Shown: positions 29,148 through 64,000, counted from the stretch's first letter. The stretch: 64,000 nucleotides of DNA from Crossiella sp. CA-258035 (GCF_030064675.1 NZ_CP116413.1:4434001-4498000), one strand, 5' to 3'. Program-made: numbers and translations. Notes: generated from the sequence alone by a model not told the origin.

Positions 29148-29705
29148 ATGCAGATGGTGCCTTTCACTGTGCGAAGCTGTGCGATCCCCGGCCTGACCGT
29201 GCTGCAGACGCGGCAGGCCGCCGACGAACGCGGAACGGTTCGAGAGTTCTTCCGCGCCTCCGCCATGACCGATGCCGGCCTGCACGCGGGGCCTTGGCAG
29301 CAAATCAACGTCACGCGCACGTCCCCGGGCGCGCTGCGCGGCTTGCACGGCGAAGCGATGACCAAGCTGATCGGCGTCGTGTCGGGTGCGGCGTTGGGCG
29401 CGTACGTCGACCTGCGGGTGGACTCGCCGGTGCGCGGCCGCGTCGTGACGGTGTCGCTGACGCCCGGGGTGCAGGTGCTGGTGCCGCCCGGCGTGTGCAA
29501 CGGCTACCAGGCGGTCGGGCCGGAGCCGATCGAGTACCTGTACGCCTTCGACCGGGAATGGGTGCCGGGCATCGGCGGTGTCGCGGTGCACGCGCTGGAT
29601 CCGGCGCTGGGGATCGAGTGGCCGGTCCTGATCGACCCTGCCGACAGGTCGAAGCTGTCCGCGAAGGACGCCGGGCTGCCGCTGCTGGCGGACGCGTTGG
29701 GCTGA
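29148..29705 (+). CDS. dTDP-4-dehydro-6-deoxysugar 3,5- (or 5-) epimerase
   Basis: 185 aa cupin of the RmlC family. Catalytic His region ALRGLHGEAMTKL (about residues 63-75), AYVDLRVDSP (beta strand with the acid pair) and PPGVCNGYQAVG. GLHGE rather than the GLHYQ of true RmlC is typical of antibiotic-pathway epimerases. It acts on a dTDP-4-keto-6-deoxysugar to convert D to L configuration or to invert C5 or C3. ATG 29148 or ATG 29154 may start it; no strong ribosome-binding site. It is the first clear gene of the polyketide cluster. Confidence 0.88.
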   Translation: MQMVPFTVRSCAIPGLTVLQTRQAADERGTVREFFRASAMTDAGLHAGPWQQINVTRTSPGALRGLHGEAMTKLIGVVSGAALGAYVDLRVDSPVRGRVVTVSLTPGVQVLVPPGVCNGYQAVGPEPIEYLYAFDREWVPGIGGVAVHALDPALGIEWPVLIDPADRSKLSAKDAGLPLLADALG

Positions 29706-29737
29706 CCCCGCGGGCCCGGCGACGCCGCCAGATGGAT

Positions 29738-29766
29738 TCGAGTTGCGGTGAAGTGCGGCTCGAGCG
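29738..29766 (+). promoter_or_regulatory. Predicted SARP-binding heptamers upstream of pccB
   Basis: TCGAGTT (29738), TGAAGTG (29749) and TCGAGCG (29760) start every 11 bp. SARP activators such as ActII-ORF4 and DnrI bind direct TCGAG-type heptamers with this period. The last repeat ends 46 bp before ATG 29813. Confidence 0.5.
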
Positions 29767-29812
29767 TCATCGGCCACCCTTCGGCGGTGCCGGTCGGCAG
29801 TCGGGAGAACAG

Positions 29813-31414
29813 ATGAGCGTCATCGAGAACGGAAGACTGACCGTCCCGCGCGCCGGAGCGCCGAAGCAGATGCGGGACCGGGTGGCGGACCTGGCGCGCC
29901 TGCGGGAGCGGCTGCGCGAGGGCCCCGGACCGGCCGCGACCCAGGCGCAGCGGTCGCGAGGCAAGCTGACCGTCCGGGACCGGCTGGCGCTGCTCTTCGA
30001 CGACGGAACGTTCACCGAGGTCGAGCCGTGGCGGCGGCATCGCGCCACCGGCTTCGGGCTGGAGGACCGGCGCCCGCCCACCGACGGCGTGGTCACCGGG
30101 TGGGGCGAAGTCTACGGGCGGACGGTCTTCGCCTACGCGCACGACTTCCGGATCTTCGGTGGCGCGCTCGGCGAGGCGCACGCCCAGAAGATCCACAAGG
30201 TGATGGACCTGGCGGAGAGCGTGGGCGCGCCGATCGTCGGCCTCTGCGACGGTGCGGGCGCCCGGATCCAGGAGGGCGTGACCGCGCTGGCCGGGTACGG
30301 CGGCCTCTTCCAGCGCAACGTGCGCTGCTCCGGAGTGCTACCGCAGATCAGCGTGATGGTAGGCCCGTGCGCCGGAGGTGCGGCCTACTCGCCGGCGCTC
30401 ACTGATTTCGTCTTCATGGTCCGCGACATCTCCCAGATGTTCCTCACCGGCCCGGACGTGGTGCACGCGGTCACCGGCGAGGTGATCACCCATGACGCGC
30501 TCGGTGGCGCCGATGTGCACGGCGAGTTGTCCGGGGTGGCGGCGTTCGTCCACGACTCCGAGGCGGACTGCCTGGCCGACGTCCGCTACCTGCTGTCGCT
30601 GCTGCCGGCGAACAACCGGGAGCTTCCGCCAGACGGCCCGGCGGACGACCCGCCGCAGCGGCGTACCGAGCGCCTGCTCGACCTGGTGCCGGCAGAACCC
30701 CGCCAGTCGTACGACATGTACCAGGTGTTGACGGAGATCGTTGACCACGGCGAGTTCCTCGAAATCCACGAGCGGTGGGCGCGCAACATCATCTGTGCGC
30801 TGGCGCGCCTCGGTGGGCAGGTCGTCGGCATCGTCGCCAACCAGCCGAGCCACCTGGCGGGCGCGCTCGACATCCACGCGTCGGAGAAGGCCGCACGGTT
30901 CGTGCAGACCTGTGACGCCTTCAACATCCCCTTGGTGACGCTGGTGGACGTGCCCGGCTTCCTGCCCGGCGTCGACCAGGAGCACGGCGGGATCGTCCGG
31001 CACGGCGCCAAGCTGCTGTACGCGTACTGCAACGCGAGCGTGCCCCGGGTCCAGCTGGTCCTGCGCAAGGCCTACGGCGGGGCCTACATCGTCATGGACT
31101 CCCAGGCGATCGGCTCGGACATATCGCTGGCCTGGCCGACCTGCGAGATAGCGGTCATGGGGGCCGACGCGGCAGCCAGTGTGATCTTCCGCCGGGAGAT
31201 CGCGTCGGCCGCGGATCCCGAGAAGGTCCGCGGACAGCGCATCGCCGAGTACCAGGAGGCGCTCATGCACCCCTTCTACGCCGCGGAGTGTGGGCTGGTT
31301 GACGACATCATCGATCCGGCGGACACCCGCGCGGCCCTGATCAGCGCGCTGACCATGCTGCGCACCAAGCACCGCGGCGTTCCCGCGCGCAAGCACGGGA
31401 ACCAGCCGCAGTGA
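29813..31414 (+). CDS. Acyl-CoA carboxylase beta subunit (carboxyltransferase)
   Basis: 533 aa, the usual length for PccB/AccD-type biotin-dependent carboxyltransferases. Two crotonase-like halves: N half with GFGLEDRRPPTDGVVTGWGEV and the acyl-CoA oxyanion region GPCAGGAAYSPALTDF; C half with HGAKLLYAYCNASVPRV and YGGAYIVMDS. ATG 29813 after GGGAG. It transfers CO2 from carboxybiotin to acetyl- or propionyl-CoA to make malonyl- or methylmalonyl-CoA; in the cluster it probably boosts extender supply. The biotinylated alpha subunit is not in the window. Confidence 0.93.
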   Translation: MSVIENGRLTVPRAGAPKQMRDRVADLARLRERLREGPGPAATQAQRSRGKLTVRDRLALLFDDGTFTEVEPWRRHRATGFGLEDRRPPTDGVVTGWGEVYGRTVFAYAHDFRIFGGALGEAHAQKIHKVMDLAESVGAPIVGLCDGAGARIQEGVTALAGYGGLFQRNVRCSGVLPQISVMVGPCAGGAAYSPALTDFVFMVRDISQMFLTGPDVVHAVTGEVITHDALGGADVHGELSGVAAFVHDSEADCLADVRYLLSLLPANNRELPPDGPADDPPQRRTERLLDLVPAEPRQSYDMYQVLTEIVDHGEFLEIHERWARNIICALARLGGQVVGIVANQPSHLAGALDIHASEKAARFVQTCDAFNIPLVTLVDVPGFLPGVDQEHGGIVRHGAKLLYAYCNASVPRVQLVLRKAYGGAYIVMDSQAIGSDISLAWPTCEIAVMGADAAASVIFRREIASAADPEKVRGQRIAEYQEALMHPFYAAECGLVDDIIDPADTRAALISALTMLRTKHRGVPARKHGNQPQ

Positions 31415-31429
31415 CATCCGTTCCCGGGT

Positions 31430-31491
31430 TCGAGATCGCTCGCGGCACGCCTGGCGCCGATGAGACCGCCGTGTCGAGCGAGGCTCCAGCG
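31430..31491 (+). promoter_or_regulatory. Predicted SARP-binding heptamers upstream of the sugar methyltransferase gene
   Basis: TCGAGAT (31430), TCGAGCG (31474) and TCCAGCG (31485): spacings 44 and 11 bp, all multiples of 11. The AKR/dehydratase divergent region at 53169/53213/53224 has the same geometry. They lie between pccB and ATG 31536. Confidence 0.5.
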
Positions 31492-31535
31492 AGGCCACCG
31501 ACCCTCCACGCACCCGCACACGAAGGGAAACGACG

Positions 31536-32456
31536 ATGACCCACACCTTCCAGGCCAGCCGGATGTGGCAGCGCATCAACGAGTTCTGGGTGACGGAGGA
31601 CGCGGCGGTCGACCTGACCGACTTCAAGTCGGACCGCCGGAACTTCAACCTCGCGCTCTGGGATCCGGCCGCCAACGGTGTCAGGTACTTCAAGGCGATG
31701 CTGTACCACCTGGCATCGGAGCTGACCCCGGCCCAGTGGGCCCGGATCGAGCCGATCCGCAACCGGGAGGTGGGAAACCCGATCACGGTACGCATCGACG
31801 GCCGCCCGGTGTGCCTCGACTACCTGCAGGCCGCGCTCGAGCTCGAGTTCATCGAGCCGCACGTCGACCTGCGGAACGCGGACGTGCTCGAAGTGGGGGC
31901 CGGTTACGGGCGTACCTGCCACGCGATTCTCTCCAACCACGACGTGTCGAGTTACTGCATCGTGGACCTGGGCAACACGCTCCGGCTGAGCCGCCGGTAC
32001 TTGCGCGAGGTGCTGGACGACGCCCAGTTCGCCAAGGTCCGGTTCGTGGACGTGGACACCGAGGACCCGGCGAGCACGCTCGCGCCGATGCGGTTCGACC
32101 TGTGCGTCAACATCCACTCCTTCACCGAGATGATGCCGGAGACCGTGCGCGCCTACCTGGACCTGATCGCCGGCACCTGCGCCGCGTTCTACGTGAAGAA
32201 CCCGGTCGGCAAGTTCTTCGACAAGCGCCTCGACGGTCACTGGAAGGGCGACGAGGCTGTCCGGTACGCCCTCGAGGTGGGGCCGCTCCGCGAGGTCGTG
32301 GACATCTACGACAACCGAGCCGTGGCGTCCCGGGCGCCCGGCTACGTCGACACCTACCGGCCGGCCGGCGACTGGACCTGCCTGGCCGACGCGCGGGCCG
32401 AGCCGTGGAGCTACTTCTGGCAGGCCGTCTACCGCAAGGGCGACACCGCGCCGTGA
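31536..32456 (+). CDS. Putative NDP-sugar O-methyltransferase
   Basis: 306 aa SAM-dependent methyltransferase of the putative sugar O-methyltransferase family. Motif I VLEVGAGYGRTCHAIL (about residues 112-127); YCIVDLGNTLRLSRRYL and DLCVNIHSFTEMM are typical of the family. The N-terminal segment (1-100) has the SDRRNFNLALWD start and a DYLQAALELEFIE lid. Ribosome-binding site GAAGGG. Its stop overlaps the ATG of the 4-ketoreductase gene (ATGA), so it acts with deoxysugar formation. It likely methylates a hydroxyl of a 2,6-dideoxysugar; position unknown. Confidence 0.75.
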   Translation: MTHTFQASRMWQRINEFWVTEDAAVDLTDFKSDRRNFNLALWDPAANGVRYFKAMLYHLASELTPAQWARIEPIRNREVGNPITVRIDGRPVCLDYLQAALELEFIEPHVDLRNADVLEVGAGYGRTCHAILSNHDVSSYCIVDLGNTLRLSRRYLREVLDDAQFAKVRFVDVDTEDPASTLAPMRFDLCVNIHSFTEMMPETVRAYLDLIAGTCAAFYVKNPVGKFFDKRLDGHWKGDEAVRYALEVGPLREVVDIYDNRAVASRAPGYVDTYRPAGDWTCLADARAEPWSYFWQAVYRKGDTAP

Positions 32457-33436
32457 TGCCGGAGCGGGAACTGCGAGGGCGCACGGCCGTGGTGCTCGGC
32501 GGGTCCGGGTTCGTCGGCCGGCACGTCTGCGCGGCAATGAGCGCGGCGGGCGCGCGGGTGGTGCGCGTTGTCAGGTCGGCTCGGCCCAGCCTCGACGACG
32601 ACTCCAGCACGGCCCGTCTCGACCTGGCGCTCGACGGGCCACGCGCGCTGACCGGGCTGCTCGATGAGCAGGACGCGGAGATCCTGGTGAACGCGGCCGG
32701 AATCGTGTGGGGCGGCTCCGAGGAGCAGCTGACCGCGGCCAACGCGGGCGTGGTCGCGCTGATGGCCGAGGCCGCGCGGGGCGCGGCGCGGCGGCCGCGG
32801 CTCGTTCAGCTCGGCACCGCCTACGAGTACGGGCCCGCCCCGTACGGCACGTCGACCCGGGAGGACCATCCGCCCGCGCCCACCAGTCCCTACGGCCGTT
32901 CGAAGCTGCTGGGCACCCGCACGGTGCTGCGCGCCGCCGCGGAGCACGGTCTGGAGGCGGTGGTGCTGCGGCTGTCCGTGGCATGCGGCCCCGGCGCCTC
33001 ACGGGCCGGCCTCAGCGGGATCGTCGCCGACCACCTCGCCGCGGGACGGCCGGAGGTTCGGCTGGCGCCGCTGCGGGCCTACCGCGATGTGGTGGACGTC
33101 CGGGACGCCGCGCGGGCGGTGGTCGCCGCGGCGCGGGCGCCCTCCAGCGCCGTGGCCGGTGCGACGATCAACGTCGGCGCCGGACGTGCCGTGCAGGTGC
33201 GCGAGCTGGTCGATCTCATGATCGCTCTCAGTGGCCGTTCGCTGCGCGTGGTGGAGGAGGCAGGCAGGCCGCGGGCGCGGGCGGACGCGCCCTGGCAGCG
33301 GCTGGACATCACCGCGGCCCGGCGGCTCCTCGGCTGGTCGCCGCGCCGGAGCCTGGAGGAGTCGCTCCGCGACCTGCTGGCATCCGTCGGCGTGCATGCC
33401 TTGAACGGGACGGCATCGGCGATCCATCGAGAGTAG
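32456..33436 (+). CDS. NDP-4-keto-6-deoxyhexose 4-ketoreductase (extended SDR)
   Basis: 326 aa. NAD(P)-binding GGSGFVGRHVC at residues 14-24, catalytic Tyr/Lys in SPYGRSKLLG, and GTAYEYGP providing the active-site Thr. Family: dTDP-4-dehydro-6-deoxyhexose 4-reductases (UrdR/OleU/MtmC-like). It reduces the C4 ketone in the last step of a neutral deoxysugar. Translationally coupled to the sugar methyltransferase gene. The TAG stop overlaps TAGAGCG upstream of KS-alpha. Confidence 0.85.
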   Translation: MPERELRGRTAVVLGGSGFVGRHVCAAMSAAGARVVRVVRSARPSLDDDSSTARLDLALDGPRALTGLLDEQDAEILVNAAGIVWGGSEEQLTAANAGVVALMAEAARGAARRPRLVQLGTAYEYGPAPYGTSTREDHPPAPTSPYGRSKLLGTRTVLRAAAEHGLEAVVLRLSVACGPGASRAGLSGIVADHLAAGRPEVRLAPLRAYRDVVDVRDAARAVVAAARAPSSAVAGATINVGAGRAVQVRELVDLMIALSGRSLRVVEEAGRPRARADAPWQRLDITAARRLLGWSPRRSLEESLRDLLASVGVHALNGTASAIHRE

Positions 33437-33529: not shown

Positions 33530-34798
33530 ATGACAAGACGGGCGGTAGTGACCGCAATCGGCATCGTGGCCCCTGGCGCGACCGGCACCAAACGCTTCTG
33601 GGATCTCATCTCCGGAGGACGGACCGCGACCCGGACGATCAGCTTCTTCGACCCGTCGCCCTTCCGATCGCAGATCGCCGCGGAGTGCGACTTCGATCCC
33701 GCGCGCGAAGGCCTCTCCCCGCAGCAGATCCTCCGCATGGACCGCGCCGCGCAACTCGCCGTGGTGAGCGCGCGGGAGTGCCTGGCGGACAGCGGGCTGG
33801 TCATCGGGGACCTCGACCCCGCCCGCATCGGGGTGTCCATCGGCAGCGCGGTCGGCTGCACCATGGGCCTTGAGGAGGAGTACGTCGTGGTCAGTGACGG
33901 CGGCCGCAGGTGGCTGGTGGACGAGGACTACGCGGTCCGGCACCTCTACAACTACTTCGTGCCGAGCTCCATCGCGGCCGAGGTGGCCTGGGAGGCCGGC
34001 GCGGAGGGCCCGGCCGCGCTGATCTCGACCGGCTGCACCTCGGGCCTGGACGCGGTCGGGCACGCGGCCACGCTGATCCGGGAGGGCGCGGCTGACGTGA
34101 TGCTGACCGGCGCCACGGACGCGCCCATCTCGCCCATCACGGTCGCGTGCTTCGACGCGATCAAGGCGACCTCCCCGCGCAACGACGATCCCTCGCACGC
34201 GTCCCGGCCGTTCGACCGGACGCGCAACGGGTTCGTCCTGGGCGAGGGGGCGGCTGTCTTCGTGGTGGAGGAGCTGGATCATGCGATCCGGCGCGGTGCG
34301 CACATCTACGCGGAGATCGCCGGGTTCGCCTCGCGGTCCAACGCCTTCCACATGACCGGGCTGCGACCCGACGGCCGGGAGATGTCGGTGGCCATCGACG
34401 CGGCGCTGGCGCAGGCCGGCCGGACGCCCGCGCAGGTTGACTACATCAACGCGCACGGCTCGGGCACGAAGCAGAACGACCGGCACGAGACGGCGGCGTT
34501 CAAGCGCAGTTTCGGCGAGCAGGCCTACCGGGTGCCGATCAGCGGGATCAAGTCGATGATCGGGCACTCGCTGGGCGCCATCGGCTCCCTTGAGATCGCC
34601 GCCTGCGCGCTGGCCATCAAGCACAACGTGGTGCCGCCCACCGCCAACCTGCACCACCCGGATCCGGAGTGCGATCTGGACTACGTGCCGCTCGTCGCGC
34701 GGGAGCAGCGAACGGACACGGTGCTGACCGTCGGCAGCGGCTTCGGGGGTTTCCAGAGCGCGATGGTGCTCACCGACGTCGCGGAGGCGGTCCTGTGA
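33530..34798 (+). CDS. Type II PKS ketosynthase alpha (KS-alpha)
   Basis: 422 aa from ATG 33530, chosen for GAGGGA 6 nt upstream and for the family start [15 protein letters not shown]; an in-frame ATG at 33464 would add 22 residues. Thiolase-fold condensing enzyme. Active-site C169 in [11 protein letters not shown]; His residues in [11 protein letters not shown] and [13 protein letters not shown] complete the Cys-His-His triad. It builds the poly-beta-ketone chain on the ACP as a heterodimer with the CLF. Its stop overlaps the CLF start (GTGA). First of the minimal PKS trio. Confidence 0.97.
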
Positions 34799-36036
34799 CC
34801 GAGGCGCCGGTGGTCACCGGGATCGGGGTCGTCGCGCCGACCGGTATGGACGCTGCCACGCACTGGGGGAGCACCGTGCGCGGGGAGAGCGCGCTGCGCC
34901 GGATCAGCAGGTTCGATCCGGCGCCGTACTCGAGCCGGATAGCCGGGGAGATCAGCGATTTCCGCGCCCAGGACCACCTGCCGAGTCGCCTGCTCCCGCA
35001 GTCTGACCACATGACGCGGCTCGCGCTGGTAGCCGCGGACCGGGCGTTCGAGGACGCCGGGGTCGACCTGCGGTCGATGCCTGAGTACGGCGTCGGCGTC
35101 GTCACCGCGAGCACTGCCGGGGGATTCGAGTTCGGCCAGCGGGAGCTGGAGAAGCTGTGGAGTCTCGGGCCGCAGCACGTGAGCGCGTACCAGTCGTTCG
35201 CGTGGTTCTACGCGGTGAACACCGGGCAGATCTCGATCCGGCACGGCACCCGAGGGCCCGGCGGCGTGCTGGTGACCGACCATGCCGGCGGGCTGGACGT
35301 TGTTGCCCAGGCCCGCCGGAACCTCCGGCAGGGCGCCTCGATGATGATCGCCGGCGGCGTGGACGGCTCGCCCTGCCCGTGGGGGTGGGTCGCCCAGCAA
35401 GCAGGAGGGCGGCTCAGCACCTCGGCCGAGCCGGCGGCCGCGTACCTGCCGTTCGACGCCGCCGCGAACGGCCAGGTGCCCGGTGAGGGCGGCGCCCTGC
35501 TGGTGCTGGAGTCGGCCGAGGCGGCGCGGGCCCGCGGCGTCAGCCGCTGGTATGGGCGGATCCTCGGCTACGCGGCGACCTTCGACCCGGCACCGGGCTC
35601 GGACCGCCCGCCGACGCTGCGCCGCGCCGTGGAGCTGGCGCTGGCGGACGCGTCCGTGACGCCGGACCAGGTCGACGTGGTCTTCGCCGACGCGGCCGGC
35701 GTCCCGGAGCTGGACCGGATCGAGGCCCGGGCGATCCGGGACGTCTTCGGCCCGCACGGCGTCCCGGTGACCGCGCCGAAGACGATGACTGGCCGGCTCG
35801 GGGCGGGCGGTGCCGCGCTCGACCTGGCCACCGCGCTCCTCGCGATGAACGAAAACGTGATCCCCCCGACCGCGAACGTGTCAAGTCCGGTGCCCGGCTA
35901 CGAGCTGGACCTCGTGCTCCTGCCGCGGCCGGCGCCGCTGTCCATCGCGCTGGTGCTCGCCCGTGGCCACGGGGGGTTCAACGCCGCGATGGTCTGTCAG
36001 AACGAGCCGACGACAAGGAAGGTGGCGGTGAGATGA
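34795..36036 (+). CDS. Type II PKS chain-length factor (KS-beta)
   Basis: 413 aa from GTG 34795. KS-beta fold without the active-site Cys: the region reads VTDHAGGLD, placing H163 where most CLFs have Gln (typically QAGGLD). Other CLF hallmarks are normal: [24 protein letters not shown] and [17 protein letters not shown]. It pairs with KS-alpha to set chain length and, in the Gln type, helps decarboxylate malonyl-ACP for priming. The Gln-to-His change and the nearby acyl-CoA ligase point to a non-acetate starter; that is inference. The stop overlaps the ACP start. Confidence 0.95.
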
Positions 36037-36299
36037 GCGAGCTGACGCTTCGACGGCTCATGGAGGTCATGCGCGACTGCGCGGGTGACGGCGAGGGTGT
36101 GGACCTCGACGGGGACATCCAGGACCGCAGCTTCGACGACCTCGGCTACGACTCCCTCGCGCGGCTGGAGACCGCGGCCAAGCTGGAACGCGACCTCGGC
36201 ATCCGCCTGCCGGACGAGGAGGTCACCGAGGCCATGACGCCAAGGGACTTCCTCGCACTCGTCAACGAGAGCCGCTCGTCGACCGGCACCGGTGGATGA
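36033..36299 (+). CDS. Acyl carrier protein of the type II PKS
   Basis: 88 aa. Phosphopantetheine attachment at S41 in LGYDSLARLE; helix II ends ERDLGIRLPDEE. ATG 36033 overlaps the CLF stop (ATGA), completing the KS-CLF-ACP minimal PKS. Carries malonyl and the growing poly-beta-ketone. Confidence 0.96.
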   Translation: MSELTLRRLMEVMRDCAGDGEGVDLDGDIQDRSFDDLGYDSLARLETAAKLERDLGIRLPDEEVTEAMTPRDFLALVNESRSSTGTGG

Positions 36300-45063: not shown

Positions 45064-45351
45064 TCAGAGCTCGTCGATCGTCTCGAACACGTCCGGGTCG
45101 GGCTTCGCAACGCCACCGAGCTGCTGCACCTGGCTGCGGAAGGCCTCCGCCTGCATGGCGCTGCGGTGCGACTCCGCGTCCTTCCACTGGGCCGTCTCGA
45201 CGTACACACCCGGGTTGCGCAACGACCGGTACAGCTTGTGGCCGAGGAAGCCGGGCTGGCTGCTCATGTACTCGGTGATGCCGGCCAGGACGCGTTCGAA
45301 CTCGTCGTTCCGGCCCTCGGACACCTGGAACTTGTTGATCAGGGTTACCAC
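45064..45351 (-). CDS. ABM-family monooxygenase (ActVA-Orf6/TcmH-like)
   Basis: 95 aa from GTG 45351, overlapping the stop of the acyl-CoA ligase gene. Antibiotic biosynthesis monooxygenase fold (dimeric ferredoxin-like barrel): LINKFQVSEGRNDEFERVL and GFLGHKLYRSL...YVETAQWKDAESHRSAM. ABM enzymes such as TcmH, ElmH and ActVA-Orf6 oxidise anthrones or naphthacenones to quinones without a cofactor. It is the last gene of the leftward core operon. Substrate position unknown. Confidence 0.9.
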   Translation of the reverse strand: MVTLINKFQVSEGRNDEFERVLAGITEYMSSQPGFLGHKLYRSLRNPGVYVETAQWKDAESHRSAMQAEAFRSQVQQLGGVAKPDPDVFETIDEL

Positions 45352-55728: not shown

Positions 55729-57684
55729 TCAGGCCGCGCCGGCGCAGCCGGCCGGGAGCCAGGCGGTGTCCTCCGCGCCGCCGAAGACGCGCAGCCGAGT
55801 GCCCTGATGGCACAGCTGCAGCATGCCGTCCAGCTTCTCGCGGGCGTAGCACCACACGAGCTCCGGGAAGGCGAACTGGGCGTTCCCGTCCTCTTCGTAG
55901 AACATCCGCAACAGGTGATGGTCCTCCAGGTACGCGAGCGCCCGCTTCACCGAGCCGAGATCCCGGCCGAGGAGATCGGCCGCGGCCTCAGCGGGGAAGC
56001 GGCCCGCCGGGAACATCGCGAGCAACCGGAAGATGCCCTGCGTCTCCCGGTCCATCGCTCGATAGCTGGAGTCGAACCGGGCACGGATGTCGAGTCCCTC
56101 GAACGGCAGCTCGTCGAACAGGTGAGCCGGCCGGCTGATCTGCTTGGCGACGCCGCGCAGCGACAGCGTCGGGTTCGCCACCAGCCTGCTGCCTATGCAG
56201 CGAAGGGCGAGCGGGTGCCGGCAGAACTCGGACTCGATCAGGTCGGCAGCCGCCTGTTCCTCGGTGTCGATCCGGGATCGACCCACCAGCTGGATGAGCA
56301 AGTCGAGGGCCTCACCGCGGCTGAGCACCTCCAGATCGACCCGCCGCGATCCGGCCAGGCCGAACAGTCTTGAGCGGCTGGTGACTATCACCCCGCACTG
56401 CGGGTCACCGGGCAGCACCGCGCTGAGGTCGACCGGCGGGACGTTGTCGAGCAGCAGCAGGATGCGGCGTCCTGCCGTGATGGAGCGGAACAGCTTCCCG
56501 CGCTCCTCCGCGGTGTCCGGCATCTGGTGGCGGGTGACCCCCATGGCGGTGAGCAGGCCGTGGGCGAGCTCGGCGACGTCTCTGCGGGTGCCGGCGCGAC
56601 CGTTGAGATCGGCGTAGAGCTGGCCGTCAGGGAAGCGAGTCCGCAGCCGGTGCGCGATGTGTATCGCCAGCGCGGTCTTGCCCACCCCCGGCATCCCCGA
56701 GATCACGGCGACCGGCGTCGCGTTCTTGGCGGGGCAGGTGAACTCGGCTTCTATCTCATCGCGGATGGCCGTTCGGCCGGTGAACTCCGCGATGGCGGGC
56801 GGAAGCTGCGCGGGCTGCCCAGGCCAGAGCGCGGCCTCGGCGGTCACCGCCGCCCGCGGTTCCTCCTGGGCAACCGTTTGCATTGGCGCGACGCCACCGA
56901 TCTCGAGCGGGGCGGCTGGCTGCAGGGCGAACGGCGACTCGATCGAGGTGTCGGAGAGCATCGACTGGTGCAGCCGCTGAATCTCCCGGCCCGGCTCCAG
57001 GCCCAGCTCCTTGATCACGTTGCCACGGTGCAACTGGTACAGCTCCAGCGCCTCGTGCCGTCGGCCCGAGTGGTAGAGCGCGGTCATCAGCGCCGCGTGC
57101 AGTTGTTCGTCCAGCAGGTGGGTCTGCACGAGCGACTTGAGCTCACCGATCGTCTCGCGGTAGCGCCCGAGCGCGAAGTCGGCCCGGATGCGCAGCTCCA
57201 GAGTGCGCGCACGCTGCTCCTCCAGCCCGGTCGCGTAGGAGGAGAGCAGCGTGCCGCGCGCCACGTCGACCAGGGCGGGACCGCGCCAGACGCTCAGCGC
57301 CTGCTCGAGGAACTTCGACGCGTTCGCGGCGTCACCCTGATCGAGCAGTTCCTTGCCCCGGCTGGCGTCGGCCTCGAAGCGGTGCAGGTCAAGGGCCTCG
57401 TCCGGGACGAACAACTTGTAGCCGCCCGGCCAGGTGCTGAGGATGTCGCCCGCCTCGCACTCGGCGAGGATCCGGCGCAGCTTGTAGATGTAGGTCTGCA
57501 GGGTGGTCATCGCGCTGGACGGCGGGTTGTCCTCCCACAGCTCGTCGATGAGCTCACCGGTCTGGACCAGCGCGTTGCGCCGGAGCGTGAGCAGCGAGGC
57601 GACCTGCCGTGGTTTGGCTGCCGTCGGAATGATGTTCCGTCCGCAGTAGACGATTTCTAAAGGCCCGAGCACTCGAAAGTCCAT
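55729..57684 (-). CDS. SARP pathway regulator with NB-ARC domain (TTA codon)
   Basis: 651 aa from ATG 57684, with GGGGGA just upstream. OmpR-like winged helix (1-95), BTAD (100-245), and NB-ARC ATPase from about 310 (ISGMPGVGKTALAI, RRILLLLDN). Codon 9 is TTA (57658-57660), so translation may depend on bldA. It is the pathway-specific activator candidate: TCGAG heptamers with 11-bp period lie upstream of several cluster operons. Last gene of the leftward run UvrA, N-methyltransferase, SARP; CACTGGGGG precedes its start as it does that of the methyltransferase. Confidence 0.92.
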   Translation of the reverse strand: MDFRVLGPLEIVYCGRNIIPTAAKPRQVASLLTLRRNALVQTGELIDELWEDNPPSSAMTTLQTYIYKLRRILAECEAGDILSTWPGGYKLFVPDEALDLHRFEADASRGKELLDQGDAANASKFLEQALSVWRGPALVDVARGTLLSSYATGLEEQRARTLELRIRADFALGRYRETIGELKSLVQTHLLDEQLHAALMTALYHSGRRHEALELYQLHRGNVIKELGLEPGREIQRLHQSMLSDTSIESPFALQPAAPLEIGGVAPMQTVAQEEPRAAVTAEAALWPGQPAQLPPAIAEFTGRTAIRDEIEAEFTCPAKNATPVAVISGMPGVGKTALAIHIAHRLRTRFPDGQLYADLNGRAGTRRDVAELAHGLLTAMGVTRHQMPDTAEERGKLFRSITAGRRILLLLDNVPPVDLSAVLPGDPQCGVIVTSRSRLFGLAGSRRVDLEVLSRGEALDLLIQLVGRSRIDTEEQAAADLIESEFCRHPLALRCIGSRLVANPTLSLRGVAKQISRPAHLFDELPFEGLDIRARFDSSYRAMDRETQGIFRLLAMFPAGRFPAEAAADLLGRDLGSVKRALAYLEDHHLLRMFYEEDGNAQFAFPELVWCYAREKLDGMLQLCHQGTRLRVFGGAEDTAWLPAGCAGAA

Positions 57685-57733: not shown

Positions 57734-58444
57734 TCAGGGTTTGATGCCGACGTAGAGCCCGCGGCCGGACGGGCCGCCGTCGAGGTAGTCGACGGTCAGC
57801 CCAGCGCGGGTGAAGGCGTCCAGGTACAACTCCCGCGGGAAGAAGTGCAGCACCTGGGTGTCGGTGAAGTGCCGGATGCCGTCCTCGTCCGCGACCAGGA
57901 AGTGGCACTGCAGGTGATGGGCGCCGTCGCGTTGCCGGCCGTGCGAGACCCGGGCGATCACGGTGGAGTCGTCCCGGATGACGTCGCCGACCACCTGGCC
58001 CTCGGTCGCCTTCTCCGGTAGCCACCACGGCTCAACCACCAGAACTCCGCCGGGCGCCAGGTGGGCGGCCATGCAGGAGACTGCCGAGGCGAGCTGCGGG
58101 GCCTGCAGGTAGGCGATGCCGCTGTAGAGGCACGTGACCACGTCGTAGGTCCGGCCGAGCGCGAAGTCGCTCATGTCGGCGAGGTGCACGGTGACGCCGG
58201 GCAGTTTCGACCTGGCGACGTCCACCATCGCCGGCGCCAGGTCCGCGCCTTCGACGTGCGCGAAGAGTTCCCGGAGTGAGGCGAGGTGCTCGCCGGTGCC
58301 GCAGGCGACGTCGAGCAGCGTCGCCGCGCCAGGCTTGCGCGCGCGCACCAGCGCGGCGAGTTCCTTGGCCTCCGACGCGTAGTCCTTGCCGCGTCCGCTG
58401 TAGACGAGGTCGTAGATCCGGGCGTGGTCCTTTCCAAAAAGCAC
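57734..58444 (-). CDS. Aminosugar N,N-dimethyltransferase (DesVI/TylM1-like)
   Basis: 236 aa from GTG 58444 (GGGGGG upstream), the length of DesVI. Matches that family throughout: IYDLVYSGRGKDYASEAKEL, LLDVACGTGEHLASL (motif I), VVTCLYSGIAYL, APGGVLVVEPWWLPE and DYLDGGPSGRGLYVGIKP. These enzymes add two methyls to the amino group of an NDP-aminosugar. With the WecE-type aminotransferase it predicts a 4-dimethylamino-deoxyhexose. Upstream of the SARP gene. Confidence 0.92.
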   Translation of the reverse strand: MLFGKDHARIYDLVYSGRGKDYASEAKELAALVRARKPGAATLLDVACGTGEHLASLRELFAHVEGADLAPAMVDVARSKLPGVTVHLADMSDFALGRTYDVVTCLYSGIAYLQAPQLASAVSCMAAHLAPGGVLVVEPWWLPEKATEGQVVGDVIRDDSTVIARVSHGRQRDGAHHLQCHFLVADEDGIRHFTDTQVLHFFPRELYLDAFTRAGLTVDYLDGGPSGRGLYVGIKP

Positions 58445-58485
58445 GGTGCCCCCCAGTGCTGGTCGGTGTGGTCTGCGGAAGATGC

Positions 58486-60960
58486 CTAACCTTGGTGCAC
58501 GAGCCGCCGCAGGAACGGCGCGGTGGGCCCGCCACCGGACGCGACGTGCGCGGGCGTGCCCGCGTTGATGATCTGGCCGCCGGCCCGTCCGGCCCCCGGT
58601 CCCATGTCGATGATCCAGTCGGCGCAGGCCGCGGAGTGGATGTCGTGCTCGGCGATGACCACGGTCTGGCCACGCTCCAGCAACCGGTCCAGGGTGCGCA
58701 TCAGGCGCTGCGCGTCGTCCGGGTGCAGGCCCGTGACCGGCTCGTCGAGGATGAGCAAACCGGGGTCGTTGCCCCGGCGGCCGCGCAGCGTGGCCTTGGC
58801 GAGCTTGATCCGCTGTGCCTCGCCGCCGGACAGGGCGGTGCCGCTCTCGCCGAGGGTGAGGTAGCCCAGGCCGATGTGGTCCATCGCCTCCAGCAGCGCC
58901 GCGAGCGTCTCCGGCTCGTCGAACACCCCGGCTGCCTCGGACACCGTGAGGTTGAGGACCTCGTCGATCGCGAGCCCGCGGTAGGTGACCGCCAGCACCT
59001 CTTCGGTGTAGCGCCGCCCGTCGCAGGCTTGGCAGGTGATGTACGTGTCGCCGAGGAACTGCATGTCGAGCTTGATCTGACCGAGACCCTGGCAGGTCTC
59101 GCACCGGCCACCGGTGGAGTTGAACGAGAAGACCGACGGATTGGCCAGTCCCCGGCGCCGCGCCTCTTCCGTACCCGCGAACAGCACGCGGATCTGGTCG
59201 AATGCCTTGGTGTACGTCGCCGGGTTCGACCGCGGCGTGCGCCCGATGGGACTCTGGTCCACGATGGTGACCCAGCGCAGGCCGCCCAGCCCGGACACCT
59301 TCTCCACCGCGGTGTGCGGCCGGCCGGCCAGCGCGGACTCGACGGAATTGGCCAGCACCTGGTTGAGCAGGCTGCTCTTGCCGCTGCCGCTGATACCGGT
59401 CAGGCAGGTGAGCCGGTTCAACGGGATCCGGACCTCCGGCGCGCTGACGTTGTGCACGGCCGCGTTGTGCAGCACCAGCCACTCGGTGTCCTCGGCCGGC
59501 GGCCGCTCCGCCCGCTCCAGCCGGTAGTGCGGCTCGCGCAGGTACCGGCCGGTCACCGACGCCGGATGCGCGGCGATGTCGCCGGGAGTCCCGGCGGCCA
59601 TCAGGGTGCCGCCGTCACGCCCGCCGCCGGGGCCCAGGTCGATCACCCAGTCGGCGCGGGCGACCAGGTCGGGATCGTGCTCCACCATCAGCACGGTGTT
59701 GCCGGCCTCGCGCAGCTCGCACAGGATTGCGAAGAGGTGGTCCTTGTCGGCGGGGTGCAGGCCCGCGCCGGGCTCGTCGAAGACATAGGTGAGGCCGCTC
59801 AGCGCGGTGCTGATCTGCGCTGACAAACGGGCGCGCTGCAGTTCGCCGCCGGAGAGCGTCGGCGCGCCGCGCCACAGCTCCACGTGCCCGAGGCCGAGGC
59901 GGATCAGCAGGTCGAGCCGGTCGCGCAGTTCGGGCACCAGGATCTGGCCGACCTTCCGCTGCGGCTCGTTGAGTTCGGCGTCGACTTCGTCGATCCAGCG
60001 CCGCACGTCTTCGACCGCGCTCTCCAGCACGTCGCGGAATGTCTTGTCCCGCAACGTCACGGTGCGCGCGATCTGGCCGAGGCCGGTGCCCTCGCAGCCG
60101 GGGCAGGGCTGCCGCTCCAGGAATGGGCGGTAGATCTCCTTGGCCTCGTCGGTGGCGGCCGCGGCGTAGGCGGCCTCGATCTCGGCGATCGCGCCGATCA
60201 ACGCCTGGTCGGCCTTGTAGGAGTACTGGCTGTTCTTCTTCTTGTTCGAGCCGGTGAGGGTGACCTCGATGGTCGCGCCCGCGGTGCCGTGCAGCGCCGC
60301 GTGCTGGAACGCCTCGGGCTGTTCGTTCCAGGGCAGGCTCAGGTCCGTGCCGTGGTGCGCGGCCAGCGAGGGCAGGTAGGTGGCCTCGTTGGACAGCTTC
60401 CCGCCGAACCAGGGCGAGCCGCCTTCCAGCAGCGGCAGCCCCGGTGCCGGCACGATGAGGTCGGGCCGCGCGTTGACGACCTCGCGGGCCCCGATGCAGG
60501 TGTGGCAGATGCCGTCGCGGGTGTACGGATCGAACTGGGCGGGATGCAGCGGCCCGGTCCACGTGCTGCCGGTCGCCAGCGGCGCCAGCCGGGCGAAGGC
60601 CAGGCCGAGGTAGGCGTCCACACCGGTCAGCGTGCCGAGCGTGGAGTTCGGATTGCGGTTGGAGTTGCGCTGGTCGACGGCGAGCGTCGCGGTCAGCCCG
60701 CGGACCCGGTCGATCTGCGGCCGGTCACGCGGCGTGAGGAACTTGCGCACGTACGGGTCGAAGCCCTCGACGTAGCGCAGCTGCGCCTCGGCGTGCAGCG
60801 TGTCCATCACCAGCGAACTCTTGCCGCTCCCACTGACGCCGGTGAACGCGGTGATGGTGTGGTGGGGCACCCGGACGTCGATGCCGTCCAGGTTGTGCGT
60901 GCGCACGCCGGTCAACTCGATCCAGCCCGCGGCGCCTGCGGGACGCGACTGGCTGGTCAT
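58486..60960 (-). CDS. UvrA-like resistance protein (DrrC type)
   Basis: 824 aa from ATG 60960, overlapping the permease stop. Two UvrA ATPase modules: Walker A GVSGSGKSSL and GISGSGKSSLL; signatures LSGGELQRARLSAQ and LSGGEAQRIKLA. Zinc-type CxxC groups: CHTC, CPGC, and CETC...CQAC. Shorter than repair UvrA (about 940 aa), like class II UvrA proteins of daunorubicin and mithramycin clusters, which protect DNA from bound drug. It implies the product binds DNA. Coupled to the exporter operon. Confidence 0.93.
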   Translation of the reverse strand: MTSQSRPAGAAGWIELTGVRTHNLDGIDVRVPHHTITAFTGVSGSGKSSLVMDTLHAEAQLRYVEGFDPYVRKFLTPRDRPQIDRVRGLTATLAVDQRNSNRNPNSTLGTLTGVDAYLGLAFARLAPLATGSTWTGPLHPAQFDPYTRDGICHTCIGAREVVNARPDLIVPAPGLPLLEGGSPWFGGKLSNEATYLPSLAAHHGTDLSLPWNEQPEAFQHAALHGTAGATIEVTLTGSNKKKNSQYSYKADQALIGAIAEIEAAYAAAATDEAKEIYRPFLERQPCPGCEGTGLGQIARTVTLRDKTFRDVLESAVEDVRRWIDEVDAELNEPQRKVGQILVPELRDRLDLLIRLGLGHVELWRGAPTLSGGELQRARLSAQISTALSGLTYVFDEPGAGLHPADKDHLFAILCELREAGNTVLMVEHDPDLVARADWVIDLGPGGGRDGGTLMAAGTPGDIAAHPASVTGRYLREPHYRLERAERPPAEDTEWLVLHNAAVHNVSAPEVRIPLNRLTCLTGISGSGKSSLLNQVLANSVESALAGRPHTAVEKVSGLGGLRWVTIVDQSPIGRTPRSNPATYTKAFDQIRVLFAGTEEARRRGLANPSVFSFNSTGGRCETCQGLGQIKLDMQFLGDTYITCQACDGRRYTEEVLAVTYRGLAIDEVLNLTVSEAAGVFDEPETLAALLEAMDHIGLGYLTLGESGTALSGGEAQRIKLAKATLRGRRGNDPGLLILDEPVTGLHPDDAQRLMRTLDRLLERGQTVVIAEHDIHSAACADWIIDMGPGAGRAGGQIINAGTPAHVASGGGPTAPFLRRLVHQG

Positions 60961-61718
60961 GCGAGCTCCCGGGCGAAGCTGCGGCTGCTGACCACGAGCG
61001 CCACCGCGACCAGTGCGCCGGCGACCCCGAGGCCGATGAAGACCTCGGCGGCGGCGAGGTCGCCGCGCAGCGCCGGCCGCATCCCGTCCAGGATGTGGCG
61101 GAACGGGTTGAGGTAGGACAGCACCTCGAGCCAGCGTGGAGCCAGCGACATGGGCAGCAGGATTCCGGACAGCAGCATCACAGGCAGAGTTCCCAAACTG
61201 ATCAGTGGGGCGAAAACGTACTGGTGTCTTGTCTTGAGCGCCAGGGCATAGGAGAGCGCGGCGCTTCCGATCGTGAGCAGCGCGACGAAGAGCAGCTGGA
61301 CGAGCATGCCGAGCAGGGGAGCGCGAAGCCACAAGACGGCGGCGAGGACGAGCAGCAGCGTCGCCTGGAACAGCTGGACGACCACGTCGTGCGCGAGCCG
61401 GCCGAGCAACAGCGAGGTCGGGCTGACCGGCGTGGCCCGCAGGCGCTCCTGGTATCCGGAGTGCAGGTCGGCGAAGAGGGCGAAACCCGCGTACCCGGCG
61501 CTGAACAGGGCCAGCATGACGAGGATGCCCGGCACGTAGAGGCTCCAGGCGGCGGAGACGTGCCCTTCCTGGGCGGCCAGGACGCTGCTCATGATCGGGC
61601 CGAACAGCAGGAGGAAGAGGACCGGCTGGGTCACTCCCACGAAGATGCCGCTCCGGTAGCTCACGGTGGCTCGCAACTGCCGGCGAGCGAGGATCGCCAC
61701 GTCGCGTGCGGTCTGCAT
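60957..61718 (-). CDS. ABC-2 type permease (DrrB-like)
   Basis: 253 aa, six membrane helices. N-terminal VAILARRQLRATVSYRSGIF and the DrrB-like SLYVPGILVMLALFSAGYAG and LPVMLLSGILLPMSLAPRWLEVLSYLNPFRH. Partner of the ATPase 10 bp upstream. It exports the cluster product. Stop overlaps the UvrA-like start. Confidence 0.93.
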   Translation of the reverse strand: MQTARDVAILARRQLRATVSYRSGIFVGVTQPVLFLLLFGPIMSSVLAAQEGHVSAAWSLYVPGILVMLALFSAGYAGFALFADLHSGYQERLRATPVSPTSLLLGRLAHDVVVQLFQATLLLVLAAVLWLRAPLLGMLVQLLFVALLTIGSAALSYALALKTRHQYVFAPLISLGTLPVMLLSGILLPMSLAPRWLEVLSYLNPFRHILDGMRPALRGDLAAAEVFIGLGVAGALVAVALVVSSRSFARELA

Positions 61719-61728
61719 GGGCTTCCCT

Positions 61729-62694
61729 TCAGCTGGGCAGGACTGGGGCGGCGCCGGCCAACTGCCGGCCGGTCATCGCGAGCAAGACGTCGTCCAGACA
61801 GGGCCGGGTGACCTCGATGGCAGTCGGCTTGACCTCTGCGGCTTCCAACGTCCGGACGACGGTGGTGACCAGAGCCTCGTCGTGCCGTGCGGTGAATCTG
61901 AGGGTCTCGCCGTCGACTGCCACCGGACCGGTCGCGCAGGCCTCCAGGGCGGCGCGCGCCGCGTCGGCGCCACCGGGCACCTTGACGATGACGACGTCGC
62001 TGCCGACCTTCCTCTTCAGCGCCTCGGGCGTGTCCTGGGCGACGACGCGGCCCTCGTCGAGGACCAGGACCTGGTCGCACAGTGCGTCCGCTTCCGCCAG
62101 GTGGTTCGTCGTGAGGAACACGGTCACACCGTGGTCTTCGCGCAGCCGCTGGATGTGCCGCCAGAGCTGAGCGCGGCTCGGCGGGTCCAGGCCGGCGGTC
62201 GGCTCGTCGAGGACGACGAGCCCGGGCCGGTGCACGAACCCCAGCGCGAGCTCGAAGCGTCGGCGCCGGCCGCCGGACAGGTGCGCGGACTGCCGATCCA
62301 TGAGTTCCGTGAGGTCGAACATCGCCGCCACCGCGTCCGCACGGGCGGCCGCGTCGGTGCTGGAGAGCCGGTGGAGGCGCGCCTGGAGCACCAGCTCCTG
62401 GCGTACGGTCGCGTTCGCGTCAGCGCCGCCCTGCTGGGCTACGAAGCCGATCCGGCGGCGTACGCCCGTGGGGTCGCGCCGCAGGTCGCAGCCCATCACC
62501 GTGGCCGTGCCCGCGTCGGGCCGCAGCAGCGTGGCCAGCATGCGCAGGGTGGTGGTCTTGCCGGCTCCGTCGCGCCCGAGGAAGCCGAAGATCTCGCCGG
62601 AGGCGACGGTGAAGCTGATGCTCCGGACCGCCTCAACCCGTTGGCCGTCGGCGATGAAGGTGCGTGTCAGCCCCTCGGCCTCGATGGCGCTCAT
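61729..62694 (-). CDS. ABC transporter ATPase (DrrA-like)
   Basis: 321 aa. Walker A reads GRDGAGKTT (usual GPNGAGKTT; the essential GKT is kept), signature LSGGRRRRFELALG, Walker B GLVVLDEPTAGLDP and H-loop LTTNHLAEADAL. DrrA-type C-terminal domain at about 230-315. With the permease it forms a two-component exporter for the DNA-binding product. Starts 3 bp after the PadR stop. Confidence 0.93.
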   Translation of the reverse strand: MSAIEAEGLTRTFIADGQRVEAVRSISFTVASGEIFGFLGRDGAGKTTTLRMLATLLRPDAGTATVMGCDLRRDPTGVRRRIGFVAQQGGADANATVRQELVLQARLHRLSSTDAAARADAVAAMFDLTELMDRQSAHLSGGRRRRFELALGFVHRPGLVVLDEPTAGLDPPSRAQLWRHIQRLREDHGVTVFLTTNHLAEADALCDQVLVLDEGRVVAQDTPEALKRKVGSDVVIVKVPGGADAARAALEACATGPVAVDGETLRFTARHDEALVTTVVRTLEAAEVKPTAIEVTRPCLDDVLLAMTGRQLAGAAPVLPS

Positions 62695-62697
62695 CTC

Positions 62698-63243
62698 TCA
62701 GTCCCGTCTCGAAGTGACTGTCGACCGATGTTCGTCGAGCCAGCGGATCTCCGCCTCGAGCAATATCATCTGGCGCCGGAACAGCGCCGAGTCCAGGCCG
62801 TGTATGCGCCCTTCGCTGACCAGTTGGGCCCGTTCGGCGTCGAGCTCGGCGACCGTGGTGGCGAGCAGTTCCCGCCGCCGGGCGAGGAGCTCGTCGAGCG
62901 CGACTGGGTCCTGCGCCCTGCCGAACAGCAATGCCACTGCCAGCGAGTCGGGACCGAAGCGCAGCTCACAGATCGCCCTTTCCCGCAGCGCCGACAACTC
63001 CCGGCGCCCATCCCCAGTGATCTCGTAGACCGTGCGTACCGGTCTGCGCCCGACCTGCTGCACCGCGACCGCCCGAACCAGGCCCGTCTCACTGGCCTGC
63101 CGCAGCTCACGGTTGATGGCGCCGGTGCCGACGCCGCCCCATTCCGACACATCGGTGTACTTGGCGATTTTCTTGATCTCATGACCGTGGATCGGGCCCT
63201 GAGACGCGAGCAGCCCCAAGATCATGAGGCGGGTTAGATTCAC
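62698..63243 (-). CDS. PadR-family transcriptional regulator
   Basis: 181 aa from GTG 63243. N-terminal PadR winged helix (residues 3-85: RLMILGLLASQGPIHGHEIKKI, GTGAINRELRQASETGLV) and a C-terminal helical dimerisation arm. Heads the exporter operon, so it likely represses it until the product is made. No ribosome-binding site is seen, and GATACTAGAT lies just upstream of the GTG; possibly leaderless. A dyad AGTA-N9-TACT overlaps this start region. Confidence 0.88.
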   Translation of the reverse strand: MNLTRLMILGLLASQGPIHGHEIKKIAKYTDVSEWGGVGTGAINRELRQASETGLVRAVAVQQVGRRPVRTVYEITGDGRRELSALRERAICELRFGPDSLAVALLFGRAQDPVALDELLARRRELLATTVAELDAERAQLVSEGRIHGLDSALFRRQMILLEAEIRWLDEHRSTVTSRRD

Positions 63244-63249
63244 GAATCT

Positions 63250-63266
63250 AGTATCGTGTCACTACT
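63250..63266. promoter_or_regulatory. Possible PadR operator
   Basis: AGTA-N9-TACT dyad, 7 bp before GTG 63243 and overlapping the stop codon region of the upstream methyltransferase gene. PadR autoregulators often bind such AT-rich dyads over their promoter. Confidence 0.35.
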
Positions 63267-64000
63267 CTAGCGAAGCAAGTCGTTCGGCGCGAGTCGCTAT
63301 CAGCAGCCGCATGGATGACCCATCCTTGCTGTGGATCTCCGGCGCAGCGAAACCGCTGTCTGCGAGCATGGCGTGGTAGCTGTCGTAGGAGTGCACCTGG
63401 CCTTCGGTGGTGAGCGCGAGCATCACCGTGGAGAACAGGTGGGCGCGCGGGTCCGCGGCCGGGTCGGCCTCGTCCGCCACCGGCGCGACGATCACCAGGC
63501 GCCCGCCCGGCTTGAGCACCGAGTGCAGTCTGCGCAGCAGCTCGCGCACCCGCTCGGACGAGAAGTGGTGCATCACGCCGGCCGCGATCGCGACATCGTA
63601 GGGACCGGCCAGCGGATCGGTGAACATGTCGCCCGGCAGCAGCCTCACCCGGTCCTGCACCGCCAGTTCGCGCGCGTGTTTCTCCGCGTAGGCCACGATG
63701 TTGGGGAAGTCGACGAGCGACACCCGGGCCCGCGGATTGTTGGCGGCGACGGTCAGGCCGTACCAGCCGGGACCGCAGGCCACGTCGAGAACGTCCAGTT
63801 CGGAACGGGTCTGCGCCCACGTCGTGAGCCGCTCCCAGACGAGCTCGGCGAGCGCTGCCGTGTCGCTGCCCATGTAGGCGTTCGCGGCCCACTCCTCGAG
63901 GAACTCGTTTCCGGGCGTCTCGAGGTTGTAGCCCATGACCGTGCCGCCGTGCCGTACTGCCTCGGCGAGTCGCCCGAGCGCCTCCCACTCCGAGTACGGC
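63262..64000 (-). CDS. SAM-dependent O-methyltransferase, N-terminus outside window
   Basis: At least 245 aa visible; the frame is still open at 64000 (coding continues upstream of ATG 63936 as ...SEWEALGRLAEAVRHGGTV), so the N-terminal dimerisation domain is cut off. Methyltransferase_2 domain: motif I DVLDVACGPGWYGLTVA, SLVDFPNI, GDMFTDPLAGPYD, catalytic-type GVMHHFSSERVRELL. Resembles the phenolic O-methyltransferases of aromatic polyketide clusters, distinct from the one at 39-40 kb. It shows the cluster continues past the right edge. Confidence 0.88.
   Translation of the reverse strand, partial: PYSEWEALGRLAEAVRHGGTVMGYNLETPGNEFLEEWAANAYMGSDTAALAELVWERLTTWAQTRSELDVLDVACGPGWYGLTVAANNPRARVSLVDFPNIVAYAEKHARELAVQDRVRLLPGDMFTDPLAGPYDVAIAAGVMHHFSSERVRELLRRLHSVLKPGGRLVIVAPVADEADPAADPRAHLFSTVMLALTTEGQVHSYDSYHAMLADSGFAAPEIHSKDGSSMRLLIATRAERLASLE

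Follow-up and report, generated by a model that had tools for sequence, protein, structure and literature searches.

What does a type II polyketide synthase (PKS) cluster make when its core operon also holds the gene of a cobalamin-dependent radical S-adenosylmethionine (rSAM) enzyme? This question is raised by a 64,000-nt stretch of Crossiella sp. CA-258035, hereafter the window, which lies at 4434001-4498000 on a single 9.17-Mb contig (gene coordinates are those of the window unless stated otherwise, with the sign giving the strand). From position 29148 onwards it carries what the initial annotation had described as a cluster for a type II polyketide glycoside that combines a WecE-type 4-aminosugar route and a DNA-binder resistance kit with a cobalamin radical SAM gene, a description that agrees with the predicted functions of the genes. 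The further statement that the cluster matched none recognised had to be given up, since two other clusters, one of Streptomyces sp. NBC_00390 and one of the Streptomyces-group genome G1066 (handles of the latter kind are our own), share 23 and 26 of its 41 genes, respectively, as reciprocal best hits. Judging from gene content, the cluster is reasonably likely to be of the aureolic acid type (mithramycin/chromomycin-like) and to include a working radical methylase, an estimate that excludes the C-7 target proposed below, and its product is probably a new, differently decorated mithramycin relative. What has been observed is the genes with their families and order and the sharing with other clusters; all reactions, the C-7 target and the product are predictions. 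Excerpts of PMC7588889 describe aureolic acids as GC-rich minor-groove binders of pharmacological interest. Their chemistry would be widened, in the chromophore and in the sugars alike, by a cluster in which a cobalamin radical methylase is joined to an amino sugar.

Genes shared with two reference clusters

Genes were called in the window and in 40 kb to its right with a codon-usage caller of our own, not a standard program, and families were assigned with Pfam and NCBIfam scans; one 42-aa call within the cluster was discarded, which leaves the 41 genes. Two of these served as markers. The FAD monooxygenase FAD1 (37507-38997, -), a candidate Baeyer-Villiger enzyme, matches the PDB entries 4k5r with 616 bits and 3fmw with 583 bits, and the next enzyme lies far below at 387 bits; both entries are listed merely as 'oxygenase' and we take them to be MtmOIV. 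The aldo-keto reductase AKR1 (52106-53104, -), a putative side-chain reductase, matches MtmW (6ovq) with 426 bits, the runner-up reaching 187 bits. A search of 343 genomes of one genus (Streptomyces by inference) with FAD1 as query gave four matches, two of which sit in full clusters, one on the NBC_00390 plasmid, with which the G478 match agrees in its coordinates, and one in G1066. Against the PDB entries named above the oxygenase and reductase of NBC_00390 score 790 and 507 bits, and its oxygenase is 55% identical to FAD1. The NBC_00390 cluster is located on the 156-kb circular plasmid NZ_CP107946.1 (76000-137000), with IS3 and IS5 transposases nearby.

Gene sharing was scored over 13 clusters by reciprocal best blastp hits (E 1e-10 over at least half of the query), with NBC_00390 ended at 88000. 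Common to the window cluster and both references is the minimal PKS, consisting of the ketosynthase KS-alpha (33548-34798, +) and the chain-length factor KS-beta (34795-36036, +), both PF00109/PF02801, and an acyl carrier protein (ACP; 36033-36299, +; PF00550, 40.7 bits). It is accompanied by the ketoreductase KR, a short-chain dehydrogenase/reductase (SDR; 49789-50541, -; PF13561, 151 bits; 56-59% identity in the two references), a didomain aromatase/cyclase (46822-47754, -; best PDB match StfQ with 332 bits, BexL 209), an MtmL-like acyl-CoA ligase (ACL; 45345-46829, -; PF00501, 252 bits; 52-58%), an ABM-type monooxygenase (45064-45351, -; PF03992, 63 bits), a PF04199 cyclase and a SnoaL-like protein. 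The FAD enzymes are shared as well, FAD1 together with FAD2 (50541-52109, -; PF01494, 280 bits), and so are the MtmW-like reductase, glycosyltransferases, a 2,3-dehydratase and a 3-ketoreductase. The ABM match of NBC_00390 falls inside its ligase protein and was left out of the count. Enlarged acyl-CoA ligases (615-764 aa) that are matched by the ABM query, with no separate ABM called, were seen in G045:C48, G183, L258 and G689/G688, which suggests an ABM-ligase fusion.

Two methyltransferases form an MtmMI/MtmMII-like pair that is again common to all three clusters. The first (38994-40046, -; PF00891, 114 bits) is 54% identical to RS38625 of NBC_00390, a gene that was compared separately; the second (63262-64000, -, a gene call that continues to 64299 beyond the window) has reciprocal matches of 44-45% in both references, its counterpart in NBC_00390 being the annotated methyltransferase RS38630, and the partial piece within the window has no Pfam match. 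Also shared are the presumed self-resistance genes, for a UvrA-like protein (58486-60960, -; TIGR00630, 766 bits, and PF17755), an ABC-2 permease (60957-61718, -; PF01061, 89 bits) and an ABC ATPase (61729-62694, -; PF00005, 94 bits). The closest UvrA-like genes among the 13 clusters are those of NBC_00390 and G1066 (52-53%), with G045 at 36%, and the ABC pair is reciprocal in both references. A PadR-type regulator (62698-63225, -; PF03551, 29.7 bits) has a 49% match in G1066 and is annotated in NBC_00390.

The order of the core genes was compared next to their content. The operon reads ABM-ACL-cyclase-KR-FAD2 in G1066 and ABM-ACL-cyclase-rSAM-KR-FAD2-AKR in the window. Among 37 stretches compared, only NBC_00390 and G1066 hold both a FAD1-like and an AKR1-like protein of at least 50% identity; some of these stretches overlap and many span just 20-60 kb (overall about 15-80 kb), and here and below the absence of a gene means its absence from the fetched stretch. 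An unrooted concatenated tree of up to nine aglycone genes, built with identity limits set by hand and with some genes missing for some clusters, has a branch (SH-aLRT 97.9, ultrafast bootstrap (UFBoot) 90) with the window, NBC_00390, G1066 and two Catellatospora clusters on one side and the nine remaining clusters on the other.

It is the gene set and its order, and not single markers, that carry the predicted class. Homology identifies a type II minimal PKS with KR and a didomain first-ring aromatase and, by homology only, an MtmOIV-type ring-cleaving oxygenase and an MtmW-type side-chain reductase. To these are added at least four glycosyltransferases with the 2,6-dideoxysugar genes for 2,3-dehydratase and 3-ketoreductase, and the self-resistance set of UvrA-like protein, ABC pair and PadR regulator. 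The aureolic steps proceed from the PKS through cyclisation, methylation and glycosylation to ring opening and side-chain reduction. By analogy, the PKS would act with KR, the didomain aromatase, the acyl-CoA ligase, ABM and the PF04199 and SnoaL-like cyclases to give a tetracyclic intermediate, on which the two methyltransferases would place one O-methyl and one C-methyl group and to which the glycosyltransferases would link deoxysugars. Opening of one ring would fall to the MtmOIV-like oxygenase and completion of the side chain to the MtmW-like reductase, while the UvrA-like protein and the ABC pair may provide protection and export.

Radical SAM methylase and its candidate target

Additions of the window cluster to this common set are the genes for the rSAM protein, a WecE-type aminotransferase, an N,N-dimethyltransferase, a NanM-type O-methyltransferase, a 3,4-dehydrase candidate and AccB. 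None of these was matched in NBC_00390 or G1066 (E 1e-10, at least half of the query). The rSAM gene (47789-49789, -) lies between the cyclase and KR genes of the core operon, which G1066 has without it; its stop codon is separated from the cyclase start by 34 bases, and the ATG of the 666-aa open reading frame (ORF) from 49789 overlaps the KR stop codon (TAATG). The protein scores 1006 bits against the KedN5 model NF033712 (cut-off 700) over model positions 3-623 of 624. This match begins at residue 1 of a shorter form from 49696, so that translation may start at either 49789 or 49696. In the PDB it matches CysS with 205 bits and TokK with 203 bits. The CxxxCxxC motif for the [4Fe-4S] cluster, C202/C206/C209, is invariant in 45 of 45 rows of the alignment. 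The same holds for Trp71, which lies near the positions of Trp75 in CysS and Trp76 in TokK and, judged by position, may be their equivalent; in these two enzymes the tryptophan lies under the cobalt, according to excerpts of PMC12846815. The nearest sequences in our sample are 64-65% identical. From the model score and the PDB matches the gene is predicted to encode a cobalamin C-methylase of the KedN5 family with CysS and TokK as relatives, from which it differs in its setting, an aureolic-type PKS operon.

KedN5-family genes are common, being found above cut-off in 32 of 297 genomes of the family. Among the 41 matches listed above cut-off one is the window's own, and up to 20 kb around each of the other 40 were retrieved. 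The idea that an rSAM gene in a type II PKS cluster is unique was rejected: there are six further cases (G045, G100, G162, G183, G269 and G383, the KS pair of the last being taken from the Microbispora catharanthi locus L151, treated as the same contig as G383:C20) and a probable seventh, G1411, in which ACP, cyclases and ligase are seen and the KS genes lie outside the fetched stretch. A related acyl-CoA ligase is present in G045, G100, G183, G269 and G1411; in G162 and in the DNA fetched for G383 no match was found. An MtmW-like gene of at least 50% identity was not found in the fetched DNA of any of the seven. Around 80 named KS-beta loci no rSAM match was found within about 10 kb on each side, and the L151 locus has one just outside. 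In the rSAM tree, which does not include G1411, the sequences of G045, G183, G269 and G383 form one clade, that of G100 stands elsewhere, and the G162 group is placed beside the window gene with weak support (83/81). The seven type II-linked rows, window included, require at least four label changes, which implies that the pairing of rSAM and type II PKS arose repeatedly. What is new is a KedN5-family rSAM gene in an aureolic-type cluster, and among the 37 stretches only the window cluster combines it both with an MtmOIV/MtmW-type set and with a route to a 4-(dimethylamino)sugar. Literature searches, with many subscription papers outside their reach, returned no paper joining aureolic acid, gene cluster and radical SAM and none mentioning KedN5; other searches of this kind turned up no cluster that matched, and in excerpts of PMC7296137 no PKS cluster is named that contains a radical SAM gene.

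The window gene may be of enediyne-type origin. Two further KedN5-family genes are present in the same genome, at 4073772-4075652 (L066) and 4358367-4360166 (L080) of the contig; they have separate gene contexts and tree branches, and a more distant second rSAM gene stands beside L066. An OMT-128aa-FAD2-OMT-FAD2-rSAM block (OMT, O-methyltransferase) occurs both in G183:C1:5000900-5060899 and in G383:C20 (Microbispora catharanthi). These two type II PKS clusters belong to different families, and the block represents a second home of KedN5-family genes.

As to the substrate, both ordinary methyltransferases have counterparts in the aureolic set, so that the rSAM enzyme looks like an additional alkyl-growing step, and its presumed role is to lengthen an alkyl or a methoxy substituent on the chromophore. 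It would add at least one methyl to an unactivated chromophore carbon, most attractively to the C-7 methyl, which would become a branched alkyl group. C-7 appeals as a target because UCH9 has a larger chain there, a sec-butyl group. Aliphatic side chains at C-3 and C-7 are given for aureolic acids in excerpts of PMC7588889, and durhamycin A is placed close to UCH9 in excerpts of PMC4009808; a C-7 structure of UCH9 did not appear in excerpts of PMC7588889, PMC4009808 or PMC10940327, nor in searches of the UCH9 literature.

A second possibility keeps the aureolic class and differs in the target alone, the rSAM enzyme extending a methoxy group to ethoxy or isopropoxy in the manner of CysS, or methylating a sugar carbon. 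We regard it as a serious contender, if not the expected outcome, and it is compatible with the reading of the cluster as aureolic. CysS converts a methoxy group stepwise to ethoxy, isopropoxy and sec- or tert-butoxy, as described in excerpts of PMC12846815. An OMT-like gene occurs in 7 of the 7 rSAM/type II stretches (23-53% identity to the window enzyme, in some cases a family-level match only), and the family scans of the cluster genes reported no class I sugar C-methyltransferase. On the other hand, TokK, which is matched nearly as well as CysS, builds an alkyl and not an alkoxy group, its isopropyl product arising through three methylations (PMC12846815, excerpts), and the rSAM gene is part of the PKS operon, away from the sugar genes. 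Between the methoxy and the C-7 alkyl group as targets, the two appear about equally possible. The most specific version of the aureolic reading, a first pathway of this type in which a CysS/TokK-like rSAM enzyme extends the C-7 methyl to a branched alkyl group and which also attaches a 4-(dimethylamino)sugar, is put forward tentatively and is doubtful as a whole. If true, it would establish a branch of aureolic acids with amino sugars and explain genetically how UCH9-like members come by their larger C-7 chain, a question that the cluster makes testable. It would also provide an enzyme that extends alkyl groups of an aromatic polyketide at a late stage.

Other possible aglycones and the predicted amino sugar

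Several results weigh against an aureolic product. KS-alpha and KS-beta are nearest to those of Thermomonospora echinospora (L082; 80% and 72%) and only 74-75% and 60-62% identical to NBC_00390 and G1066, and no MtmOIV- or MtmW-like gene was found in 21 kb of the T. echinospora locus. FAD1-like proteins (44-52%) are also encoded in type II clusters of G449, G045, G1398 and G1428, with no MtmW-like gene in the fetched DNA, and the oxygenase alone is therefore not diagnostic. Neither is the reductase alone, since AKRs 52-57% identical to the window protein are encoded by ten further genomes in a phylum sample of 396, counted irrespective of their surroundings, and once more by the Crossiella genome itself, outside the cluster. 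The UFBoot value of the key split is just 90, and the place of the window inside the group is without support (21.8/52). No cluster gene reaches the cut-off for a dTDP-glucose 4,6-dehydratase, the sole genome copy above it being at 958941, whereas NBC_00390 has an annotated dTDP-glucose synthase and 4,6-dehydratase (the synthase was not searched for in the Crossiella genome). We treat genes of this kind as a variable and not a defining aureolic feature, and the copy at 958941 may serve the cluster. Among 67 genomes of Paractinoplanes, presumably the genus of the durhamycin producer, an oxygenase match was found in seven, and in none of the stretches around these seven did both markers reach 50% in one cluster, the durhamycin-producing species lying perhaps outside the sample. 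Members of the aureolic acid group are told apart by sugar type, according to excerpts of PMC7588889.

A rival product would be an uncleaved tetracyclic glycoside of polyketomycin-, anthracycline- or tetracycline-like structure, with the early PKS genes in common, an MtmOIV-like enzyme that acts as a hydroxylase and a reductase that uses another ketone. We consider such a product unlikely. In its favour, the window KS pair is nearest to clusters not of the reference type, and the top PDB match of the cyclase is StfQ, presumably an enzyme of the steffimycin class. G1398 has an ABM-ACL-cyclase-KR-FAD2 operon next to the genes for a type I PKS of 1728 aa and a 34DH-type sugar enzyme, with no MtmW-like gene in the 60 kb compared, and Streptomyces musisoli shares much of the core and, in addition, a 3,4-dehydrase candidate (73%). 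Yet both S. musisoli and G1398 lie opposite the window across the 97.9/90 branch of the aglycone tree, the best match of the oxygenase is MtmOIV by a wide margin, and the only two of the 37 stretches with both markers at 50% or above also have the closest UvrA-like genes of the 13 clusters. The aureolic class remains the preferred reading.

The sugar genes point to an amino sugar. The 2,3-dehydratase (53278-54735, +; PF03559, 497 bits) and the 3-ketoreductase of the Gfo/Idh/MocA family (54732-55721, +; PF01408/PF22725) are joined by an NDP-4-keto-sugar aminotransferase (36301-37452, +) that exceeds two WecE-type cut-offs (NF008687, 525 bits against 375; TIGR02379, 485 bits against 434.85) and by a putative sugar N,N-dimethyltransferase (57734-58444, -), whose nearest PDB entry is the sugar N,N-dimethyltransferase 3bxo (248 bits), followed by CalS10 and dTDP-3-amino-sugar N,N-dimethyltransferases. 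Together they predict a 4-(dimethylamino)-2,4,6-trideoxysugar, in which the last two enzymes would install the amino group and its methyls. Should this sugar also be a substrate of the 3,4-dehydrase candidate, the pathway logic of forosamine-type tetradeoxysugars predicts a 2,3,4,6-tetradeoxysugar instead; this protein has counterparts of 70-73% identity in two other clusters. The initial annotation had proposed the 4-dimethylamino sugar, which remains plausible and is incomplete, because the candidate enzyme for 3-deoxygenation lies beyond the window. The NanM-type enzyme (31536-32456, +; TIGR04371, 165 bits, cut-off 44) and a TylF-like methyltransferase, 72% identical in NBC_00390, could O-methylate sugars. 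Further genes for sugar supply are an RmlC-like dTDP-sugar 3,5-epimerase (29148-29705, +; PF00908, 110.7 bits) and an NDP-sugar 4-ketoreductase-like SDR (32489-33436, +; PF01370, 131 bits). Transfer is assigned to the glycosyltransferases GT1 (40175-41320, +), GT2 (41413-42639, +), GT3 (42618-43835, +) and GT4 (43814-45022, +), all with EryCIII-like N- and C-terminal domains.

Lomaiviticin carries a 4-dimethylamino-2,4,6-trideoxysugar, and the resemblance to it noted before extends to this predicted sugar but not to the aglycone. Kinship was rejected and a lomaiviticin-like diazo-aromatic pathway is highly improbable, as the aglycone genes have their matches in the two aureolic-type references, MtmOIV and MtmW are the nearest enzymes to the oxygenase and the reductase, and the Pfam scans of the cluster genes, run with no dedicated query, gave no hint of diazo formation, in line with what had been said at the outset.

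Extent of the cluster and its surroundings

The cluster spans about 46 kb. The start at 29148 proposed by the initial annotation is kept, but its right end at 64000 is not: extension of the sequence placed the end at about 75.3 kb in window coordinates, about 11.3 kb beyond the edge, at position 11327 of the right-hand stretch L009. This part adds an SDR, a third FAD monooxygenase, the PF04199 cyclase, the SnoaL-like protein, two glycosyltransferases (which brings the EryCIII-like glycosyltransferases to six), an aldo-keto reductase, the TylF-like methyltransferase and the DegT-type 3,4-dehydrase candidate. A fusion of two unrelated clusters was considered and rejected, since the core genes left and right of the window edge have their reciprocal best hits together in a single cluster, both in NBC_00390 and in G1066. 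The gene types named at the outset were all recovered by the Pfam and NCBIfam scans, namely KS-alpha, KS-beta and ACP, didomain cyclase, KR, ABM, two FAD hydroxylases, acyl-CoA ligase, WecE-type aminotransferase, four glycosyltransferases, UvrA-like protein, ABC-2 permease with ATPase, and radical SAM. To that list we add the NanM-type O-methyltransferase, the PadR regulator, a large SARP-type regulator (55729-57672, -; BTAD domain PF03704, 138 bits, and NB-ARC) and an acyl-CoA carboxylase carboxyltransferase (29813-31414, +; PF01039, 612 bits), which may serve precursor supply. The carboxyltransferase has no match in the NBC_00390 or G1066 clusters; at many of the 80 named loci it has counterparts of 68-74% identity encoded next to the KS genes.

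On the left the cluster is flanked by TetR, FAD and DUF3159 genes and on the right by CBS, LuxR, alkyl-sulfatase-like and amidase genes. The DUF3159-FAD-TetR block (25982-28439) is kept in G086:C1, G055:C1 and G108:C7, where the cluster is not beside it in the DNA fetched. Different genes adjoin the block in these three relatives, which argues that the cluster is variable within the genus. G086, a genome of the same species, has no close KS-beta (best 57-58%). To the right of the window, at L009:5010-5774, a 254-aa epimerase-like protein is encoded that matches only the C-terminal part of PF01370, and homologues of similar length (about 250 aa) are present in S. musisoli and G1066.

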